DNA of 29,936 nt from a virus. This document shows positions 12,799-24,945 of this stretch, piece by piece (the first letter of the stretch is position 1; every line of letters starts with the position of its first letter). The stretch covers positions 1-29,936 of the IMG/VR virus record IMGVR_UViG_3300044646_000729; one strand, 5' to 3'. The notes under the pieces are model-generated. The model saw nothing but the letters and a program-made list of their open reading frames with translations, was not told where the DNA came from and did not search any database. The position numbers and the translations under genes were made by a program.

Positions 12799-15700
12799 TT
12801 ATCGTAAAGTTGCGGCGATTTTATTTTGAGCGAGTTGATTATTTACTCGGTTTATATCCGTAACCTTTGTAATTATTTGAACGTTCGAAATCGCGTCCGA
12901 TATTTGCGCGGCGAGTTTATCCGTCGCGATCGCGTTAACTACTCCGGCCCTAATATCGTTCGCCGTAAATCCTCCGTCGGCAAATCCCGACAAACCTAAC
13001 GAGGATATTTTTCCGAGTCTCATTCTCTCAAGAGTTGAAACGAGAGCCGATCCGGTTTCCGTTTTTAAAATTTTATTCGGGACGACGTACTCGCCTTTGT
13101 GGTATGTATAACTTTTACGGCCCAAGGCTCGAGACTCCTCGCGAGGATTTCCGTCTCCGGTATATCCTCCCTCGTAAAACGGCGGCGGCGGCGGTTGTTG
13201 AGCCGCAATGATTCCGATTTGTACGGCTCCGGTCGCGGCGGCTACTCCGGCGAGTACGGCTCCGACAAACGGAACCGGATTAGCAAGGGCCGCAATTACG
13301 GCGGACGCGGTCGAGATAATTGCTTGAGTTATTTGAACGCCTTTATTAAAATTGAATTGATCGACGTCGAGTTGATATTTTTTCCGCGCGGTTTCCTCGT
13401 TGATCTTTTCGATTTGTTTTTGTTTTTGCTTTTCGGTTAAAGTTGTTTTTTCAATCGCTTTAACTTGCGCGGCTCCGAGTTGCTCAACTTGCGCGGTCGC
13501 TCCATTAAACGCCGCGTTTACCGCGTCGGCTAATGATCCAAAAACTTGCGAAACAATATCGGCGACTTGTTTAAATTTCTCCTCGAAATCTTTTGGTATT
13601 ATCGCGATCGGTTGTTCGTTTATTTGCTTGAGTTGGATTTCTAATTCGCGGAGTTTTAGTTTCGCCGTTTCGATATTTGCGACCTCCTCCGGCGTAATTA
13701 GATTGTCAACTTTCGCCGACTCCTCCGCGATCCTTAATAATTCTTTTTGAGTATCGATTTCGAGTTGTATCAACGCGATCGATTTCTTTTTCTCGTCCTT
13801 TATCGTTTCCTCAATATCGAGACGCCTCGCCTCTTTTGATACGGCTAAGTTTATAACTTGAATATCGAGACGCCTTTTCGCCTCCTCTTGATCCTTGGCC
13901 CGACGTTGAGCGTTAAACTTTTCGACGATTTCCTCTTGTTTATTTGCGGTCTCCTCGTCGATCTCAAGTAAAAGTTTTTGCAATTCAATACGCGCTTTTT
14001 CTTTTTCCGCTTTTTCTTTTTCGTTTGTCGCCTTGAGATTTTTAAACTCCTCGAGGAGTTGTAATTTTTGGCGATCTTGCGCGGTAAATAACGCCTCGAT
14101 TTCCTGTTTTTGTTGATCTTGTATCGCCTCGGTTTGTAAATCTTTACTTTGTCCGAGTATCTTTTTTTGAAAAGCGAGGATCGCCGTTAAATTATCTTGA
14201 GTCGACTTTTTTGTTTTGTCTCCGGTTGTTGTTACTTGGCTTTGTAAATTTACTAACTCTTGAGTTAATTCGTCGACTCTTATTTTTTGCTCGACATATC
14301 CGAGGATCGCTTGATCGTTTACGTTCTCTCCGACTTTCAAGAGTCGATCTTGATTTCCTCCGTAATCATTTTGCGAGTTAATAACGTTGTCGATATTCTT
14401 TTTTAATTTATCTTGATTTGAGATCGAGTCGAGTTCCGCTTGTATTCTTTTTCGATCCTCGTCGTTCGTTGCTTTTTTAAGTTGCAAAATTAAATCTCCG
14501 CGTTTAACTTGACTCTCATTTAAAAACTCTTGTTTTTGGAGGAGATCAGTAATCGCCGCCTCGAGTTGCGTCTCCTTTATTCGAGCGGAGATTTTTATTT
14601 GAATGTTTTTAATTACTTGCTCTTGAGCCTTGGCAACCGCCGCCAAAAACGCGGCCTCGTCCGACAAGTTTTTTAAAGTAGTTCCATACGTCGAATTGAC
14701 TTGGTCGATTAATTGTTTACGTTGTTTCGATCCGGCGTTCGATTTTTGTAATTCTCCGAAAAGTTTTGTCGCTTGAACGACCTCTTTTATTTCCTCCTCG
14801 CGTAATTTTTCCGTCGCCTCTTTTAAATTCTTTTCCGCCTCGGTTAATTCGACGACCTTTGTTTTATTACGAGCAAGGTACGCGATTAATAATCCAAGTC
14901 CAACAACCAACGCGCCGACTCCCGTTGTCGCGAGTGCAATCTTAAACGCCTTTAACGCTCCGGTCGAGGCTCCGATAACCGTTGTATAAACGATTTGAGC
15001 CGCCGTCGCCGCCTTTGTTTTTACAAGTTCAATCGTCGATATAATCGCGCCTTTTGACTTGGCGATATTTGCCGCCGTTTGAGCGATCGCGACCGCTTGT
15101 AAAGCCTTTTTTTGAACCTCTTGAATATCCTCGCTCTCTCCGAACGCTATCGATAACAATCCAATGGAGGACGTTAAAGCCGTCGCGGCTTCGAACGTGT
15201 CGTCCATTGCCTCTTTTGCGGGATTTTTTGGCTCCTTATTTCCAAACTCGTCGACTTTTCCGATTGCTTTATCGATCTCGAATTGAGTCTCGCGGATCGC
15301 CTCGTTTGTTTTTTTATACTCCTCGGAATTTAAGTCAAGCGTCGGAGCGAGTTTTTTTAAATCGGAAAGTTTTTCCGTCATTCCCTCGAGAGTATTGTCG
15401 TACTCTTTTACGGATTGTTTTCCGGCGTTAAATCCGATCTCCGTTCTCTTGATCTCTTGATCTAATTCGGCGAGAGATTGATCGATCGACATAACGGCGG
15501 AGTCGACCGACTCGATCGAGGAGGAGGTTCCGTTTAACGACGCGTTGAAATTATTAACTCCCTCGGTTGTCGCGTTGAGTTTCGAAATTCCCGCGCCAAA
15601 TCCGAACGGTTTTTTATTTATGTTATCTTGTTGCTCTCCGCTTTGTTTTAACGCCTCCTTTTGAGCGAGTAACGCTTCGCGTTGTTTTAACAATGGAGCG

Positions 15701-16191
15701 AGAGTTTCCTCGAGAGCCTCCTTATAATTACCTACATTTCGCCGATTATCTCCGACGGCGGACTCGTTTTCTTTTAACGTGTCGGAAATTCCTTTAATTG
15801 TTTTTTGCAACGCTTGGCCCTCGGCGGAATTTTCTCTCGCCTCTTTACTCAATCCGTTATAAGTTTTCGTTAACGCCGAAAGTTGTAAACGGAGTTGTTC
15901 GTTCGATCCCTCTTGCGCGTTGTTGAGTTTTATTTGAAACTCGATCTCCTTATTATTCGCGGAGATTTGTTTCGAGTATTCTTTCGTTTTACGGCCCAAC
16001 TCGAGGAGTTGATCCTCGATCTCTTTTCGTCGTTCAACTCCCGTATTTTTATCGTTTAACTCTTTGTTGAGTTTTTTCGTTTCCTCTTTTAATTTGTTGA
16101 GGGATTTTTGTAAAACGTCGCCTTGTTTTTCAAGATCGGACGGATCGAGTTTAACTCGGAGTAAAACCTCTTTTGTAATATTGTCCGCCAT
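12799..16191 (-). CDS. Tape measure protein
   Basis: 1130 residues, the longest gene. Long charged coiled coils cover about residues 15-165 and 455-900, with a hydrophobic segment about 415-445 (GALVVGLGLLIAYLARN) and a second Ala/Gly/Ile-rich hydrophobic stretch about 954-1007 ending in PPPPPF. The following GGYTGDGNPREESRALGRK and HKGEYVVPNKIL is the typical C-terminal signature of tape measures in Bacteroidota phages. The protein sets tail length and is injected with DNA. At roughly 1.5 angstrom per residue the tail would be near 170 nm (inference). It is followed convergently by the RHH gene and preceded 5 bp upstream by the tail-tip gene. Confidence 0.93.
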   Translation of the reverse strand: MADNITKEVLLRVKLDPSDLEKQGDVLQKSLNKLKEETKKLNKELNDKNTGVERRKEIEDQLLELGRKTKEYSKQISANNKEIEFQIKLNNAQEGSNEQLRLQLSALTKTYNGLSKEARENSAEGQALQKTIKGISDTLKENESAVGDNRRNVGNYKEALEETLAPLLKQREALLAQKEALKQSGEQQDNINKKPFGFGAGISKLNATTEGVNNFNASLNGTSSSIESVDSAVMSIDQSLAELDQEIKRTEIGFNAGKQSVKEYDNTLEGMTEKLSDLKKLAPTLDLNSEEYKKTNEAIRETQFEIDKAIGKVDEFGNKEPKNPAKEAMDDTFEAATALTSSIGLLSIAFGESEDIQEVQKKALQAVAIAQTAANIAKSKGAIISTIELVKTKAATAAQIVYTTVIGASTGALKAFKIALATTGVGALVVGLGLLIAYLARNKTKVVELTEAEKNLKEATEKLREEEIKEVVQATKLFGELQKSNAGSKQRKQLIDQVNSTYGTTLKNLSDEAAFLAAVAKAQEQVIKNIQIKISARIKETQLEAAITDLLQKQEFLNESQVKRGDLILQLKKATNDEDRKRIQAELDSISNQDKLKKNIDNVINSQNDYGGNQDRLLKVGENVNDQAILGYVEQKIRVDELTQELVNLQSQVTTTGDKTKKSTQDNLTAILAFQKKILGQSKDLQTEAIQDQQKQEIEALFTAQDRQKLQLLEEFKNLKATNEKEKAEKEKARIELQKLLLEIDEETANKQEEIVEKFNAQRRAKDQEEAKRRLDIQVINLAVSKEARRLDIEETIKDEKKKSIALIQLEIDTQKELLRIAEESAKVDNLITPEEVANIETAKLKLRELEIQLKQINEQPIAIIPKDFEEKFKQVADIVSQVFGSLADAVNAAFNGATAQVEQLGAAQVKAIEKTTLTEKQKQKQIEKINEETARKKYQLDVDQFNFNKGVQITQAIISTASAVIAALANPVPFVGAVLAGVAAATGAVQIGIIAAQQPPPPPFYEGGYTGDGNPREESRALGRKSYTYHKGEYVVPNKILKTETGSALVSTLERMRLGKISSLGLSGFADGGFTANDIRAGVVNAIATDKLAAQISDAISNVQIITKVTDINRVNNQLAQNKIAATLR

Positions 16192-16195
16192 AAAA

Positions 16196-18181
16196 TTAGT
16201 TTTGTATTATTATTAAAGTTATTTGAGTCGAGTCTTTTTCGTTTACCTTATATTGAGTAATCTCGTTGATATAAAAATACGCTCCGAAATAATCGATCCA
16301 AATCGGACGACTAAAATCGAGTTGATTAACGTCGAGATTATTTAAACGGATCAAGCAAGTAACCGCCTTGTTTGAGTTTATCGTCGACGATAGTAAAGGA
16401 TAATATTTATCGAGCAAGTTTTCGAAAATCAAATCCTCAAAATAAACGTTAGGTTGAGGAGAGGTAAAAAATCCGCTCGGTTGAATTGTCAACTCCGCCG
16501 ACGTATCGAAATCAACGTAAGCGAAACGACCGTTAACGACCGTAAAGGTCGATCCCTCATTTACCGGAATGTACGCCAACGGAACGACGCCTCCGAAACC
16601 GCTCGGCCCGTTGTAAGAAAATAATCGGATAACCGGAGAAAATACACTCTCAAAAATTACTTGCTCCGTATTGATCGCCGCCGCGTTAACGATAAACGAT
16701 CCGCGTCCGTAATTGATTTGTCGAGACAAATATTCGTCGGTATCGTCCGGCGCGTATTGAAAATAATTATTACGGGAATAATTGTCCGAGGTAAACGAGA
16801 TCGAGTAATCCTCGGAGAGATCAAGTTTTTTCGACCAATCGATCGCGTTGGGAATATTTCCGATAACTTTTCCGAATTGAAAAATTTTAACCGTATTCGA
16901 CAAAGGACTTTGTTCGAAAATTAATCCGTATTGATTTGCGATCGAGAGAATAAAATCGGATTGAGTTACGTCGGGCAAAGTCGCCCCGAGTTCCAACCAA
17001 TTAAAAATAGGATCAACAACCAACGCGCCAACGTCTCCGGTTAATTCAAACGAAACGATCTCGATTGTCGATCCGGCTTTCCAAATCGCGTTTGTTTCGG
17101 TCGAGAACGCAACGGCCCCGCGTCCGATCGTAATATCGATTTCGCCTTGAAAGTTATAAATCCCGACGGGCTGACTTACGAGATTGTAAATCGGGTAATA
17201 TTGTTGAGTCCCGTTCTCGTCATAGTAACTTAATTGAGAGGCGTCAAAAAACGCAGTATTAAATAAACGATCGACCGTAATATTATATTTTAATTTTACT
17301 TTTACGGAGTCCATAAATAACCAACCTTTCCCCGCGTTGATATTAAAAAACGGAATACCAAACGGATCGATCCAATTTACTTGGTTAACGTACGGATAAC
17401 AACTCGTTTCGTTAGTGTCAAATATATGAAACTTATCTCCGTTCGGAGCGAATACCGAGGACGGAGGAGCGAAATCGACCGAGGCCGTTGATTTTAATTT
17501 ATTTCTCAACTCCGTATTTTCCGACCTTGAAAATTGAGCCGAAAACGGGATTATTTGTTTTTCGAATAGTGGATCGTTATCGAACCAATCCGACTCGATC
17601 GAAAGTCCGACGTCGTCGAATATCTTTTTAAATAAATATTTTGCGTAAATAGCCGGATAAAGTTGAAACCAATTAACGTTAAACGGCGGCCCCGCGATCG
17701 GGTTAAAAAATATTTCTCCGTAATCAATATTCGGACAAATAAAAACGTCGGGCCAAAGGTTCGCGCGTGATCCGGTCGTAAACGCCTCCGTCCAAAAATA
17801 AGAATAATCGCAATGTAATAAAGCCGATTGAATATTTTTATCGGCGATCAATTCAAACCAATTCGAGTTACCCGACAAGATACGGATTTCGTATTCGCTC
17901 CGACTCGCGGTAATTATCTCCGCAATTCCCTCGACTTGCAAAAGTCCGTCGGTATAAATTAAACAAGGTATTTTTAAATAAGGTAAATCCGAAACGCTCA
18001 AAACATTGTTAGAAAATCCGAGGATCAAATTATTTTTTTTTGTCGCCGGAATTTTAAACGTATTCGAGTACGATCCTTGACGGCTCTCGATCTCGAAAAG
18101 ATTATTAACCGCGTAACTCATAACGATAGTTTCGTCCGAGTATAGTTCAATGAGTTCGGTATTTATATAAATTTCCGTCAT
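16196..18181 (-). CDS. Tail tip / distal tail protein candidate
   Basis: 661 residues, beta-rich with many aromatic residues. The N-terminal segment LFEIESRQGSYSNTFKIPAT (about 28-47) is a recurring signature in large tail proteins encoded next to tape measures in Bacteroidota phages. It probably forms the base of the tail tip or hub. I see no lysozyme, peptidase or lipase motif, so a purely structural role is favoured. It lies 4 bp upstream of the tape-measure start and downstream of two other tail genes, in one operon. Confidence 0.75.
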   Translation of the reverse strand: MTEIYINTELIELYSDETIVMSYAVNNLFEIESRQGSYSNTFKIPATKKNNLILGFSNNVLSVSDLPYLKIPCLIYTDGLLQVEGIAEIITASRSEYEIRILSGNSNWFELIADKNIQSALLHCDYSYFWTEAFTTGSRANLWPDVFICPNIDYGEIFFNPIAGPPFNVNWFQLYPAIYAKYLFKKIFDDVGLSIESDWFDNDPLFEKQIIPFSAQFSRSENTELRNKLKSTASVDFAPPSSVFAPNGDKFHIFDTNETSCYPYVNQVNWIDPFGIPFFNINAGKGWLFMDSVKVKLKYNITVDRLFNTAFFDASQLSYYDENGTQQYYPIYNLVSQPVGIYNFQGEIDITIGRGAVAFSTETNAIWKAGSTIEIVSFELTGDVGALVVDPIFNWLELGATLPDVTQSDFILSIANQYGLIFEQSPLSNTVKIFQFGKVIGNIPNAIDWSKKLDLSEDYSISFTSDNYSRNNYFQYAPDDTDEYLSRQINYGRGSFIVNAAAINTEQVIFESVFSPVIRLFSYNGPSGFGGVVPLAYIPVNEGSTFTVVNGRFAYVDFDTSAELTIQPSGFFTSPQPNVYFEDLIFENLLDKYYPLLSSTINSNKAVTCLIRLNNLDVNQLDFSRPIWIDYFGAYFYINEITQYKVNEKDSTQITLIIIQN

Positions 18182-20661: not shown

Positions 20662-21942
20662 TTAAAAAGTATAAAGAGCGTTAACGTAAAAGTTTCCGAC
20701 AACCGGATTACTCGGAGCGACGTTTCCTTTTGATCCCTCACTTAAAACGGTTCCGGCCGGATTGCTTATCGTTGGATTAATTCCGTTCGTTACGATTGTC
20801 GTCGCCATTAATGAGAGAGTCCCTCCTGAAACAAAGATCGGAATATTTGACAAAGATTTTACGAGAGAGTTTTTAATTAAAATTTTTCCGATCGTTTGTT
20901 CGCAAACTCCCGTCGCCGAAACCTCGTCGAGTTCGAGAATTATATTCGCTGTCGGATTTGTATTTTTAAACAAAGGTCGAACGATCGAAACTTTTTTTAT
21001 CTTGATTAAGAAATCTCCGGCGGTATTTACAAAGGCGTTGTTTATTCTTATCGCGCCTTGAGCAACGTTCGACGTATCGATCAACTCGTCGAGTTCAATA
21101 CTCAAATAAGAGCCGGATAAATTGTCCGCGTAAATATGGCAACTAAACCCGCCGACAACGTTCGAGGGAATGATAAACGATTTCGCCTTGATCGTTGCCT
21201 TTCCGCTCCACGTTGTGCCGGAAATCCAAAAACAACCGTTTGAGACATTTACAAACGTATTCGTTACATTTCCCCAAATTACCGCGTTAAGGTTTCCGGT
21301 TAATCTCATTGAAAAATTACGTCCGGCGGAGTTGTAATCTCCTCGGATTAGTAATTTTATTAAACCGTCTTGTCCGAGAATACCGTTCGAGATATTGTTT
21401 ACCGTAACCGAATTAAACTCGAGAGTTACGTTCGCCGTTGGGTTCGACTTTACGTTTATAAGATTTCCCGTACATTGTAAAACGCGAGAGTAACCCGTCC
21501 AAAAAAACGGAGTCGTTAAAGCAACTCCGCCGATTGTAGTGTCGAAATTTAATAAGGTCGTAAAACAATAAATATTCGATCCTTCCTCGCCGTAAAACGA
21601 AACGCCGTCGATTGCTAAGTTACTAAAAACGGAATGATCTCCGGCCCTTAAAACAACAACGTCGCCAACTTTCGCGGCGGCGATTGCGGCGGCGATAGTT
21701 AGGAAAGGTTTATCCGCTCTCTCTCTCAATCCCGAAAAGTCGTCTCCGAATTTCGGATCGACGTAAACGGTTTTAGAGACGTTAATTTGAGTCGTAACGA
21801 AACCGAGAATAAAGTCTCGGAGTTGTTCGACCGTTATCCGATCCGTTCTCGGGATCGTTGCGTCAACGTCGACGATTGCAAATAAGTCCTCGAGAGAAAT
21901 ATCCTCGGTCGCGATCGTTGGTAAATTTGTAATTTTTGGCAT
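20662..21942 (-). CDS. Tail spike with beta-helix fold
   Basis: 426 residues. The N-terminus (about 1-50, ITNLPTIATEDISLEDLFAI then TDRITVEQLRDFI) is the attachment module common to Bacteroidota phage fibres. From about 58, VYVDPKFGDDFSGLRERADK, PFLTIAAAIAAAKVGDVVVL and RAGDHSVFSNLAIDG is the canonical entry of a pectate-lyase-like parallel beta-helix. Many Asn/Val/Ile short rungs follow to about 400. Such spikes bind and often cleave surface polysaccharide. No catalytic residues can be assigned by eye, so depolymerase activity is only possible. It lies in the middle of the tail block. Confidence 0.82.
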   Translation of the reverse strand: MPKITNLPTIATEDISLEDLFAIVDVDATIPRTDRITVEQLRDFILGFVTTQINVSKTVYVDPKFGDDFSGLRERADKPFLTIAAAIAAAKVGDVVVLRAGDHSVFSNLAIDGVSFYGEEGSNIYCFTTLLNFDTTIGGVALTTPFFWTGYSRVLQCTGNLINVKSNPTANVTLEFNSVTVNNISNGILGQDGLIKLLIRGDYNSAGRNFSMRLTGNLNAVIWGNVTNTFVNVSNGCFWISGTTWSGKATIKAKSFIIPSNVVGGFSCHIYADNLSGSYLSIELDELIDTSNVAQGAIRINNAFVNTAGDFLIKIKKVSIVRPLFKNTNPTANIILELDEVSATGVCEQTIGKILIKNSLVKSLSNIPIFVSGGTLSLMATTIVTNGINPTISNPAGTVLSEGSKGNVAPSNPVVGNFYVNALYTF

Positions 21943-21954
21943 ATCGTTAAAATT

Positions 21955-22443
21955 TTATTCGGTTTCAAGAGGTTCGTTCGACTCGGTAAATATATCGATC
22001 CCGCTCTCGGTTAAAAGTATGTTAGACGCGCAATCTATTTTTGAATTAATTGTAAAACTTAAACCGTAACCCGATACCGTTCCGGCGAGTTGACGATATT
22101 CGGGAGTTTTTAAAACGTTGCTCAAGTTCAAACTCGAGGACGCGTTTAAAGCAAATAAAAATATATCGGAAAGGTCGTCCATTTCGGCGATAATTTCCTC
22201 GCGCCTTTCGTTCGTTGTCGCGGGTGTATCTTGTTGCCAAAACATTAGGACGACGGTATGTTTAACGTTATCGTTCGAAAGGTCGTACTCCGATTGTACG
22301 GGTAATAAATGGATTTGAGGAAACGGCCCGTCGTACTCGAGCGATCCGTCCGTCCGGCGACCGTGAACGAAGCGACCTTGAGGCGGAGGATTTACCGTAT
22401 TCGCAACGTTTCGGATTGTATTAACGAGGCTTTGATAATTCAT
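21955..22443 (-). CDS. Tail completion/terminator-like protein
   Basis: 162 residues, alpha/beta. The segment order (MNYQSLVNTIRNVANTVN; PQIHLLPVQSEYDL; KHTVVLMFWQQDTPA; EIIAEMDDLSDIFLFALN) matches small Bacteroidota phage proteins that cap or complete the tail tube: helix, strand with Asp/Ser, central strand, then helix. The start codon lies 23 bp inside the -1-frame extension of the tail assembly chaperone (stop at 22421). Its identity as terminator is inferred. Confidence 0.65.
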   Translation of the reverse strand: MNYQSLVNTIRNVANTVNPPPQGRFVHGRRTDGSLEYDGPFPQIHLLPVQSEYDLSNDNVKHTVVLMFWQQDTPATTNERREEIIAEMDDLSDIFLFALNASSSLNLSNVLKTPEYRQLAGTVSGYGLSFTINSKIDCASNILLTESGIDIFTESNEPLETE

Positions 22444-23145
22444 TTTGACGTTTATAAATTTCGGTTAACTTTTCCTCGTACTCTCTTTTTTCTTTTTCGA
22501 AAATCAACGTCATATAAATAGTTTCCGCGTCGGTCTCGAGCAAGGTTTCGTATTTTGTTACGTCGCCTTTTGAAAGTGAGTACAGAGTTTTAAAAAATCC
22601 GTACTTATTAAAGTTCTCGACTCCGGCCTCCTCCTCCTCCTCGGAATATTTACCCTCGGTTAATTGTTTAAAGCGGTCGTAAAATCGAGATATTTGCGCA
22701 AAAAAAAATTCACTATTCCGAGGACTTTCGTAACGGGTTCGTTTTTAATATCTCGGTCGGTATAAACTTGAACGATCTCGGCTCCGGCGTTAATTGTGTC
22801 CTTGCCGTCAAGTTTCGCGATCGCTTGTTTCGCCTTTTCCAACTTGGCCCAACTTTGCAAACCGATATTAAAATCCTTGTACTCCTCCGGTTCGCTCGAC
22901 GTTTTTAAAATATCGTCGTATTCAAACGAGAACGCAATTACCGGAATGAGGTTAATTATATCGTCCGCGCGTAAAGTATTAATTAAATCGTAATCGATCC
23001 CGACAAGGATCGCGATACGTCTCTCGAGAGTACCGTCGTCGTAATTAACCAACTCGACGTATTTTTCGAAAGTTACCTCGTCCCAACTTGTCGGAACGTT
23101 TTTCGTTTCGACTCTTTTATTTGTTATAACTTCGAATTTTATCAC
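22421..23145 (-). CDS. Tail assembly chaperone, -1 frameshift product (gpGT-like)
   Basis: Fusion of residues 1-148 of the gene at 22660-23145 with 93 further residues read in the -1 frame after a T9 run (22708-22700). The extension is fully open from 22702 to its TAA at 22423-22421 and looks like a real protein: FYDRFKQLTEGKYSEEEEEA, then NKYGFFKTLYSLSKGD and IYMTLIFEKEKREYEEKL. That composition and helix pattern are typical for the T domain of G/GT chaperones. The 216 bp between the zero-frame stop and the next gene are otherwise unexplained. Total about 241 residues. Fusion and short form would recruit tail tube and tape measure. Confidence 0.85.
22660..23145 (-). CDS. Tail assembly chaperone, short form (gpG-like)
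   Basis: 161 residues from a GTG at 23145. No in-frame ATG occurs near the start, and the protein begins MIKFEVITNKRVETKNVP when GTG is read as Met. The motif VPTSWDEVTFEKYVELVNYD (about 17-36) is typical of Bacteroidota tail assembly chaperones. The short form ends FFLRKYLDFTTALNN at 22660. A T9 slippery run near its 3' end gives the long form. The GTG start lies only 4 nt after the -7 element at 23150-23157, with a second element 19 bp upstream. Confidence 0.85.
   Translation of the reverse strand: MIKFEVITNKRVETKNVPTSWDEVTFEKYVELVNYDDGTLERRIAILVGIDYDLINTLRADDIINLIPVIAFSFEYDDILKTSSEPEEYKDFNIGLQSWAKLEKAKQAIAKLDGKDTINAGAEIVQVYTDRDIKNEPVTKVLGIVNFFLRKYLDFTTALNN
22700..22708 (-). other. T9 slippery site for -1 frameshift
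   Basis: The minus strand reads AAT TTT TTT TTG in frame, nine Ts in a row, within codons 146-149 of the chaperone gene. This provides the heptamer T TTT TTT, a known type of -1 slippage site. The -1 frame is open for 93 codons afterwards. The zero frame stops 37 bases downstream of the run, at 22662-22660. No clear downstream pseudoknot is identified by eye. Confidence 0.8.
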
Positions 23146-23149
23146 AATA

Positions 23150-23176
23150 CAAATATAATTTTAATCGACAAATATA
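23150..23176 (-). promoter_or_regulatory. Tail-operon promoter, tandem -7 elements
   Basis: On the minus strand two perfect TATATTTG elements occur at 23176-23169 and 23157-23150, 19 bp apart. The proximal element is followed by TATT and the GTG start. The bases TATTTGTATT match the head promoter closely (TACATTTGTATTA ATG). The proximal element has no -33 TTG at 17-23 bp, but a TTTGGTACTTA motif ends 34 bp upstream, exactly as at the head promoter. The terminator of terL lies immediately upstream. Confidence 0.7.
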
Positions 23177-23195: not shown

Positions 23196-23220
23196 AAAAA
23201 TCCTCCCTTGAGAGAGAGGA
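23193..23220 (-). terminator. Intrinsic terminator after terL
   Basis: On the minus strand, TCCTCTC (23220-23214) pairs with GGGAGGA (23207-23201, one T-G pair) around a 6-nt loop, followed by T8 (23200-23193). It ends the terS-terL unit and is directly followed by the tail-operon regulatory motif and promoter. Confidence 0.82.
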
Positions 23221-23293: not shown

Positions 23294-23304
23294 TAAGTAC
23301 CTAA
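23294..23304. repeat. Degenerate fourth motif copy
   Basis: TAAGTACCTAA differs from the other copies at one base. It overlaps the terL stop codon at 23301-23303. A weak -7-like TAACTTTA (minus, 23268-23261) lies 32 bp downstream in the transcription direction, with no gene start close by, so function is doubtful. Confidence 0.35.
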
Positions 23305-24608
23305 TAATTACGAGATCGTATTCTCGGAGGAGGAGAGAGTTCGAAAAACATTCTCAAGGCCAAGGCGTCCGAAATATCCGGCGATCGTCCGATCAATTCC
23401 TTTACTTTATCTTTTGGGATTATCGAGAGGCGGGAGTCCTTGTCGATATTGTTTCGTTTTACTTGCTCGAGTTCCTCGATTAATTTTTCTTTTGTAACGT
23501 TATCGCAATCGATCCAACCGATTTGATTTGAGTTTATAAAATCCGCAAGTTTAAAATAACATTGAGATTTTAAGTTTTGATAGTTCTCTCCGTTTAACGC
23601 TCTCGAGTTGTTAACGAAACCTTTGCAACCGGATAAGAGGTCGACGGCCCCTCCGCCGACTCCGTCCTCGTCGATAACGACTTGCGACCTCGGGATCGAA
23701 TGTTTTACCTCTAGGGATTTAATCGCGTCGACAACCTCAACGATTGACGATTTCGGGATCAATTTATAATTGATTACCTTGAGGCCGTCCCAAACGATTA
23801 AAACGGTTTGATCGTCTCCAAATCGAGCAACGTCGGCGGATAAATATTTATTCCCTTTCGTTTGAAAGTTGTTCGTAAAAATATTCGTTATCGCGTCGAA
23901 ATTAATCAGTCTCGCCGGATCGTCGTCGTATTCCCAATTTCCGAAAAGGAGTCTCTCCTTTGAAACCTTGTCGAGCGTTTTCAAGTTCTCGAGGTAATGT
24001 TTTGAGATATAAGGATTATCCGTCGCGAGGGATTGAATAACGGCCCTATTTTTATTTATTGATCCGTCGCGCCAAGGTTTATAAAATTGCGAGTACGTCC
24101 AATTTTTCGCGGGGTTGCAAGTGTATAAAATTTTAGGGATCAAATTATTCTCGTCGAGTTTGTATCGAATACGGGATTTTAAAATCTCTTTACATTTCTC
24201 CGTTATTTGATTAGCCTCGTCAACGAACGCGCCGGATATTTCCAACGATCCGAGTTCGTCAAAATTGGGATCGCTCGGATAATTAAACAAGTCCTTGAGC
24301 AATATCTCGGAACCGTTGAAAAACGTTATTAAATTCGATTGATAGTTTATTTTGTAATGAACATTTCGCGCGATCCCTTGCAACCGAAACAAATCAAAGA
24401 GCGAGTTTAACGTCGTCTCCTTTAAAGTTTTTAAAACGGATCGTCCGATTAACCAACGAGTCGCCGGATATTGTATCGCGTTTTTTGTAATCCAATAACA
24501 ACCGAAAACGGATTTACCTCCTCCGGCCCCTCCTCCGAAAAGTAACTCGGTCGTTTGTTTATCCTCGAGGAGATTGATCGCCTCCGTTTGCTTTTTCGTT
24601 AATCTCAT
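23301..24608 (-). CDS. terL: Terminase large subunit
   Basis: 435 residues. ATPase: Walker A FGGGAGGGKS (about 24-33) and Walker B LEISGAFVDEAN (about 129-140). Nuclease: first Asp in LSADVARFGDD (about 253-263), VVIDEDGVGGG (about 309-319) and the last acidic site in GRSPDISDALALR (about 409-421). All the catalytic residues expected of a headful or cos terminase are present. It packages DNA through the portal. It overlaps terS by 50 bp and is the last gene before a strong terminator. The tail and head operons follow in the same direction. Confidence 0.96.
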   Translation of the reverse strand: MRLTKKQTEAINLLEDKQTTELLFGGGAGGGKSVFGCYWITKNAIQYPATRWLIGRSVLKTLKETTLNSLFDLFRLQGIARNVHYKINYQSNLITFFNGSEILLKDLFNYPSDPNFDELGSLEISGAFVDEANQITEKCKEILKSRIRYKLDENNLIPKILYTCNPAKNWTYSQFYKPWRDGSINKNRAVIQSLATDNPYISKHYLENLKTLDKVSKERLLFGNWEYDDDPARLINFDAITNIFTNNFQTKGNKYLSADVARFGDDQTVLIVWDGLKVINYKLIPKSSIVEVVDAIKSLEVKHSIPRSQVVIDEDGVGGGAVDLLSGCKGFVNNSRALNGENYQNLKSQCYFKLADFINSNQIGWIDCDNVTKEKLIEELEQVKRNNIDKDSRLSIIPKDKVKELIGRSPDISDALALRMFFELSPPPRIRSRNY

Positions 24609-24945
24609 TATCCGAATATTTTTCCTCGATCCAATTAACCGGAATTTTTGAAACGTCGATCTCTTGTCGTTCGATATATCCTCGATCTTTACATTTTGTT
24701 TTCGCCATAAAAATAATAACGGCGGTATCGTTGAGATTTAATTTCTCGACGAGTTTTTTCTCGATCAGGTCTTTTAATTGTTCGCCGTAATCCGCCGCGT
24801 CAAACTCCGCCTTAAATTCGGGATCGTCTCGGAGCCAAGCGTAATGAGTTGATCGAGAAATCCCGACGGCGGCGGTTGCCTCGGTAATATTTCCGAGAGT
24901 AGTTTTCAACGCGTCGAGATATAATATTTTTTTTTGTTCTAACAT
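24559..24945 (-). CDS. terS: Terminase small subunit
   Basis: 128 residues. Residues about 18-40 (NITEATAAVGISRSTHYAWL) are a helix-turn-helix of the terminase small-subunit type, followed by RDDPEFKAEFDAADYGEQLK and an oligomerisation helix (KDLIEKKLVEKLNLNDTAV). The protein recognises the packaging start on phage DNA. The terL ATG lies 50 bp inside the terS end in another frame, an unusually long overlap that ties their expression. The upstream gene ends 15 bp away. Confidence 0.88.
   Translation of the reverse strand: MLEQKKILYLDALKTTLGNITEATAAVGISRSTHYAWLRDDPEFKAEFDAADYGEQLKDLIEKKLVEKLNLNDTAVIIFMAKTKCKDRGYIERQEIDVSKIPVNWIEEKYSDNEINEKANGGDQSPRG

Follow-up and report, generated by a model that had tools for sequence, protein, structure and literature searches.

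Organization of the T9 Gene

The window analyzed here is the whole stretch of 29,936 nucleotides that makes up positions 1 to 29,936 of IMG/VR virus record IMGVR_UViG_3300044646_000729. On its minus strand a gene with a run of nine T's, called the T9 gene in the following, lies directly behind the terminase gene. The features of the region are listed below.

23301-24608, minus strand: gene of the terminase large subunit, directly upstream of the T9 gene (Pfam Terminase_3, E = 2.6e-11; PHROG terminase, E = 2.8e-34)
23202-23217, minus strand: terminator-like stem and T run between the terminase gene and the G open reading frame (consensus match only)
23150-23157, minus strand: TATATTTG box shortly before the start codon of G (6/6 type-1 sequences inspected)
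22660-23145, minus strand: 0-frame open reading frame with GTG start for a G-like product of 161 aa (relatives 27-93% identical; AF2 model, pLDDT 86.6)
22700-22708, minus strand: T9, the candidate slippage site, AAT TTT TTT TTG in the 0 frame with an in-phase T_TTT_TTT (exact T9 in 23/23 sequences found by protein similarity)
22660-22662, minus strand: 0-frame stop codon, beginning 46 nt past the first T of T9
22424-22702, minus strand: -1 frame extension (T-like domain) of 93 codons, stop at 22423-22421 (matches the C-terminal half of phrog_28240, E = 8e-4)
21955-22443, minus strand: gene after the T9 gene, 162 aa, its start overlapping the extension by 23 bp (neighbor conserved in type-1 relatives)
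12799-16191, minus strand: gene of the tail tape measure protein, farther downstream (match to PHROG tape measure, E = 8.6e-12)

Read from 23145 to 22660, the T9 gene has the form GTG ... GTG AAT TTT TTT TTG ... TAA. The 0 frame is closed 13 codons after T9. The -1 frame offers 93 codons before its stop, filling the 216 bp between the T9 gene and the ATG of the next gene at 22443 and entering the latter by 23 bp. An earlier sequence-only reading of the window had given the T9 run at 22708-22700, the 93-codon frame, the gap and the overlap, and every one of these figures was correct. Shuffling of synonymous codons in the 41 CDSs of the window gave an expectation of 0.9 sense-strand runs of at least nine T's, and one was observed. 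Consequently, the scarcity of T9 inside the window was rejected as evidence. The run alone is unremarkable; it is its conservation that gives it significance. Sense-strand A9 runs were expected 4.5 times in the window genes by the same procedure and seen twice, at 18033-18041 (gene 16196-18181) and at 24927-24935 (small terminase). Scans of the window for Rfam families and tRNAs yielded no matches.

Seven genes separate the T9 gene from the tape measure gene in the window. The succession of TerL, T9 gene, tail genes, tape measure and protease recurs in those relatives whose contigs are long enough, and a comparable order was found in L024, L029, L030 and L026. Between 7652 and 24945 the window carries terminase, T9 gene, tail genes and tape measure, followed by protease, capsid and portal; Cellulophaga phage phi46:1 and other contigs are arranged alike. 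This order differs from that of lambda. The closest terminase is that of Flavobacterium phage 11b (54%) and the closest capsid protein that of phi46:1 (41%). Thus, the host very probably belongs to the Bacteroidota.

The TATATTTG box was located 3-5 bases ahead of the start codon in 6/6 type-1 sequences inspected. By comparison to a Bacteroidota consensus it may be a promoter element. If it is the -7 box of a promoter, the message of the T9 gene would be leaderless or nearly so. Downstream of the T9 gene, the following gene of relative L002 is about 95% identical over 135 aa and then continues with a new C-terminal module that it has in common with L004. A counterpart of the window gene at 20662-21942 (426 aa) is present in L024 (58%); L002, L003 and L004 gave no match. 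On comparison of these sequences, window positions 22443-20662 appear as a swapped module within an otherwise similar stretch.

Coding Selection in the -1 Frame

Two scans of IMG/VR, one starting from the G protein and one from the extension, yielded the same three contigs (L002-L004). Their G proteins are 63-93% and their extensions 82-94% identical to those of the window at the amino acid level. The exact T9, its phase, the 0-frame stop and the stop of the extension are as in the window in all three. Within the extension-only part, changes fell on third positions of the -1 frame in 18/29, 37/59 and 44/62 cases when the window was paired with each of the three contigs, the second value being that of L003. 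The dN/dS ratio of the extension in the -1 frame was 0.05-0.13 for five of six pairs of these close relatives, dS being undefined for the sixth pair. Coding conservation of the -1 frame in relatives, on which the sequence-only reading had let its proposal of a frameshift depend, is therefore present. Judged by this substitution pattern, the extension of the close relatives has evolved as a sequence that is translated in the -1 frame. Its interpretation as a chance open reading frame was rejected because of the selection in the -1 frame.

Alignment-based scans added two loci, L011 and L012, with an exact T9 in the type-1 phase. Identity of the G proteins is 42-44% (L011) and 31-32% (L012), and that of the extensions 58% and 37%, respectively. 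The type-1 set found by protein similarity consists of six members, namely the window, L002-L004, L011 and L012.

Conservation of the T9 Run

A more distant clade was reached with L021, which was found via its extension and in which T9 has moved by one codon position (CTT TTT TTT TAT). The phase of the run against the 0 frame is the third codon position in type 1 and the second in type 2. A scan with the N-terminal part of G from L021 and L051 retrieved 15 contigs, all with an exact T9 (15/15). In the 14 translated contigs of the L021 clade the -1 extension opens at T9 throughout; L127, the fifteenth type-2 contig, is the L051 contig. Tblastn with the G protein of L021 also led to the cultured Nonlabens phages P12024L and P12024S. 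Their gene after the terminase codes for a 'hypothetical protein' of 175 aa and contains an exact T9, followed by a -1 extension of about 84 residues. In the deposited annotation only the last 55 of these residues appear, entered as a separate gene. These small hypothetical genes, P12024L_41 (L128, 6366-6533) and P12024S_39 (L129, 2866-3033), coincide with the end of the -1 extension and probably represent the tail of a recoded product. The same search against GenBank phages with the G protein of L051 found no match; with the window G and the fused proteins it gave no genuine match either, a Microviridae match (E = 0.09) being spurious.

In total, an exact T9 and a -1 extension were observed in 23/23 finds made by protein similarity (six type-1 sequences, 15 type-2 contigs and the two P12024 phages). 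Many of the type-2 contigs are near copies, so that we judge the number of independent lineages to be about seven. TTT accounts for 332 of the 454 phenylalanine codons of the window. The probability that two TTT codons are retained across seven lineages by chance is about 0.01 (0.07 with the codon usage of P12024L), the flanking T's being set aside. This calculation comprised 13 of 14 type-2 contigs, nine of them distinct, L123 being left out owing to a 3-nt indel.

The pattern GGNNTNGNNNNT9GNNCA occurred in 37 viral stretches, 16 of which exhibited a long G frame with a -1 extension; five of these 16 were contigs known before. A tighter T9 pattern gave 45 stretches in bacterial genomes, with the layout in none of them, and a first scan of genome contigs gave nothing among 589 stretches. 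Since the pattern demands T9, the 16 layout matches were left out as evidence for T9 conservation. They indicate the breadth of the arrangement and the rarity of its chance origin. L036 (2218-3014) also carries a T9 and a 99-residue -1 extension; a terminase or other structural match is absent nearby, and with its membership uncertain it was not counted as a secure member. L028 ends at the contig edge. L027 has no TerL match, and its near twin L053 has one.

Position of the Frame Change and Proposed Products

The -1 frame is closed directly before T9 in five of 12 type-1 loci (L002, L024, L027, L053 and L032), and in L032 the 0 frame ends only 16 nt past the first T of the run. Consequently, the shift would have to take place on or just after T9. 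We consider it highly probable that a programmed -1 recoding at T9 yields G-like and GT-like products from one gene. The arrangement is real and conserved, and the recoding is very probably functional. The sequence-only reading had proposed such a -1 event, and the layout, the coding selection on the extension and the conservation in relatives all support it. According to the proposed mechanism, the majority of expression would stop at the 0-frame stop codon and give the G-like protein of 161 aa. In a minority of cases, slipping back by one base on T9, or translation of a T10 message that the polymerase has produced, would join the first 148 residues to the mostly helical extension of 93 residues and give a GT-like protein of 241 aa. 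By analogy to lambda G/GT these two products might be two forms of a tail assembly chaperone of a tailed Bacteroidota phage. The slip event, the slip rate and the chaperone function are what we infer here.

Two other explanations of the open -1 frame were weighed against this recoding. If the -1 frame were translated independently into a small protein of its own, this would agree with the annotation of P12024L_41 as a separate gene (ATG at TAATG) and with a GTG or TTG that is found in the -1 frame 8 nt ahead of T9 in type 2 and P12024, where such initiation is conceivable. In the window, however, the first ATG, GTG or TTG of the -1 frame appears at +165 from the start of T9, the 0-frame stop lying at +46. 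Translation could thus start at extension residue 54 at the earliest, yet the N-terminal half of the extension is strongly conserved. The closure of the -1 frame just ahead of T9 in five type-1 loci is a further argument against separate initiation, which we regard as very unlikely. The sequence-only reading had also been concerned that the length of the homopolymer might be an artefact. Homopolymers are indeed prone to error, and a sequencing or assembly error could have disguised a single-frame gene with T10. Against this stands the exact T9 in all 23 sequences, which originate from many samples and include two cultured phages, because a length error is unlikely to repeat so exactly. The concern was therefore not borne out, and an artefact is extremely improbable.

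Relationship to Tail Assembly Chaperones

The lambda G/GT tail assembly chaperone is produced by a ribosomal -1 frameshift. Chaperones of this type bind the proteins of tape measure and tail tube and are missing from virions. The layout of the T9 gene and the coding selection on its extension agree with a G/GT-type gene, in which two products share the N-terminus and the -1 recoding lies near the 3' end. Like the lambda system, the window combines a short protein, a predicted -1 extended form for which the frame changes late in G, and a tape measure gene. Where lambda has a mixed heptamer, however, the window has a pure T9; sequence or fold similarity was not detected, the extended product is a predicted one and the gene follows the terminase, seven genes away from the tape measure. 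The usual position of G/GT genes directly before the tape measure gene, which is typical and not strictly defining, is thus not the one observed in the window.

Pfam contained no family that matched G or the extension at the cut-off, and none of the PHROG matches to either is annotated as tail chaperone. Neither fold nor profile comparisons to the PDB gave a relevant match, the absence there proving nothing. When the AlphaFold model of G was compared to BFVD, a 161-aa protein was retrieved with TM 0.81, as was I6R9M9 of P12024S (E = 1.8e-3). The only fold matches labeled as chaperones were weak (A0A8S5V8Z8, E = 0.14; A0A873WGT4, E = 2.7). The model of the T extension is of low confidence (pLDDT 62). 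Among the BFVD proteins retrieved, six of 234-267 aa, A0A6J5SVK3 being one of them, were common to the G and the T model. These single chains are similar in size to the 241-aa fusion predicted here and may represent fused counterparts, seen as protein only.

Bacteroides phage BS-TP3 has gp55 in the slot after TerL, as in the window, with tail genes and tape measure following in a similar order, but this protein of 178 aa is encoded in a single frame without T9. It was assigned to phrog_28240 (E = 1.6e-30). The C-terminal half of this family matches the window extension, and seven of 12 T domains hit the family (best E = 5e-4). On these profile matches BS-TP3 appears to carry a T-like domain as an in-frame fusion. 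Gp16 of Cellulophaga phage phi46:1 occupies the same slot in a single frame without T9, and neither the G nor the T profile matched it. The terms 'tail assembly chaperone' and 'T domain' of the sequence-only reading are thus backed indirectly, by layout and neighborhood, and they find no backing in profiles, solved folds or a position before the tape measure gene. By analogy we suggest that the T9 gene works like G/GT and, with moderate confidence, that it has a chaperone role; homology to the lambda family is not claimed.

Ribosomal or Transcriptional Slippage

The homopolymer had been contrasted with the XXXYYYZ heptamers of known G/GT sites. This contrast does not hold: within any T9 a T_TTT_TTT lies in phase, and this heptamer already conforms to XXXYYYZ, with X=Y=Z. 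The accompanying caution that a T homopolymer might slip during transcription fits an exact T9 with no consistent RNA structure behind it: for structures free of pseudoknots, z-scores downstream of T9 ranged from -2.8 to +1.8 and scattered around 0 in 17 loci. Programmed transcriptional slippage on A/T runs takes place in Thermus dnaX, Shigella mxiE and Citrobacter tssM. In these genes a homopolymer run chooses between a short and an extended product with no known stimulators, as may be the case here. They are not phage tail genes, however, and transcriptional slippage in the window gene is only putative. All G/GT cases known to us are ribosomal, which speaks against slippage of the polymerase. 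A near precedent is SPP1 gp17.5/gp17.5*, a gene of the G/GT type whose slippery site consists almost entirely of U (UUUUUUC) and for which a putative -1 shift is given in the accessible text of PMC6316719. It differs from the window gene in its heptamer in place of T9, its Gram-positive host and its position adjoining the tape measure gene.

Purely ribosomal -1 slippage on U_UUU_UUU, with the extra T's as a coding constraint, is favored by this precedent and by the heptamer being in phase in all members, although the latter is a consequence of T9. Stimulators of ribosomal -1 frameshifting would be a conserved structure downstream or a Shine-Dalgarno sequence upstream, the latter assessed by eye. 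The former was not detected in the 17 loci, however, and a heptamer does not demand a length of exactly nine in two phases. If instead RNA polymerase added one U on T9 in some mRNAs, the T10 message would give the long protein. This would agree with a run length of exactly nine in all members found by protein similarity despite the different phase of the clades and with the lack of a consistent structure after T9 in the 17 loci. An A/T run of about nine at the frame change, as marks transcriptional slippage, is present in every one of them. In the accessible parts of the respective sources, slippage in bacteria is described on runs of nine A or T (PMC5009743), that of E. coli RNA polymerase is biased to poly(T) and undetected under seven T's (PMC6260861), and Shine-Dalgarno sequences are unrecognised by Bacteroidia ribosomes (PMC9976891). 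On the other side, the in-phase T_TTT_TTT is unavoidable in any T9, the flanking T's are possibly fixed by dual coding, and the polymerases treated in the literature examined do not include that of the Bacteroidota. We slightly favor tandem tRNA slippage on U_UUU_UUU by precedent, giving it about an even chance; slippage of RNA polymerase is nearly as likely, and the action of both together is improbable.

Implications

A T9 site in a tail chaperone gene was not found in the accessible text of the literature searched, which was mostly non-subscription (PMC5009743, PMC3711429, PMC10885494, PMC6316719, PMC3952083, PMC9976891, PMC6260861, PMC4256274, PMC8008677 and PMC6149199). Within this literature, the conserved T9 gene would be a not yet recognised version of the known G/GT principle. 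It would extend this principle to a protein group that is present in PHROG, if at all, as unknown function. The codons for G-x-x-x-F-F over T9, after the terminase, may serve as a search signature for annotation, and the Nonlabens phages P12024L and P12024S offer a cultured pair for testing the recoding. Only tentatively do we consider that RNA polymerase slipping on an exact T9, in replacement of ribosomal frameshifting, sets the ratio of the two chaperone forms in a large and so far unrecognised group of Bacteroidota phages. The T9 gene would be a natural case for the question of whether a phage can set the ratio of structural proteins at transcription, in a phylum without Shine-Dalgarno pairing.
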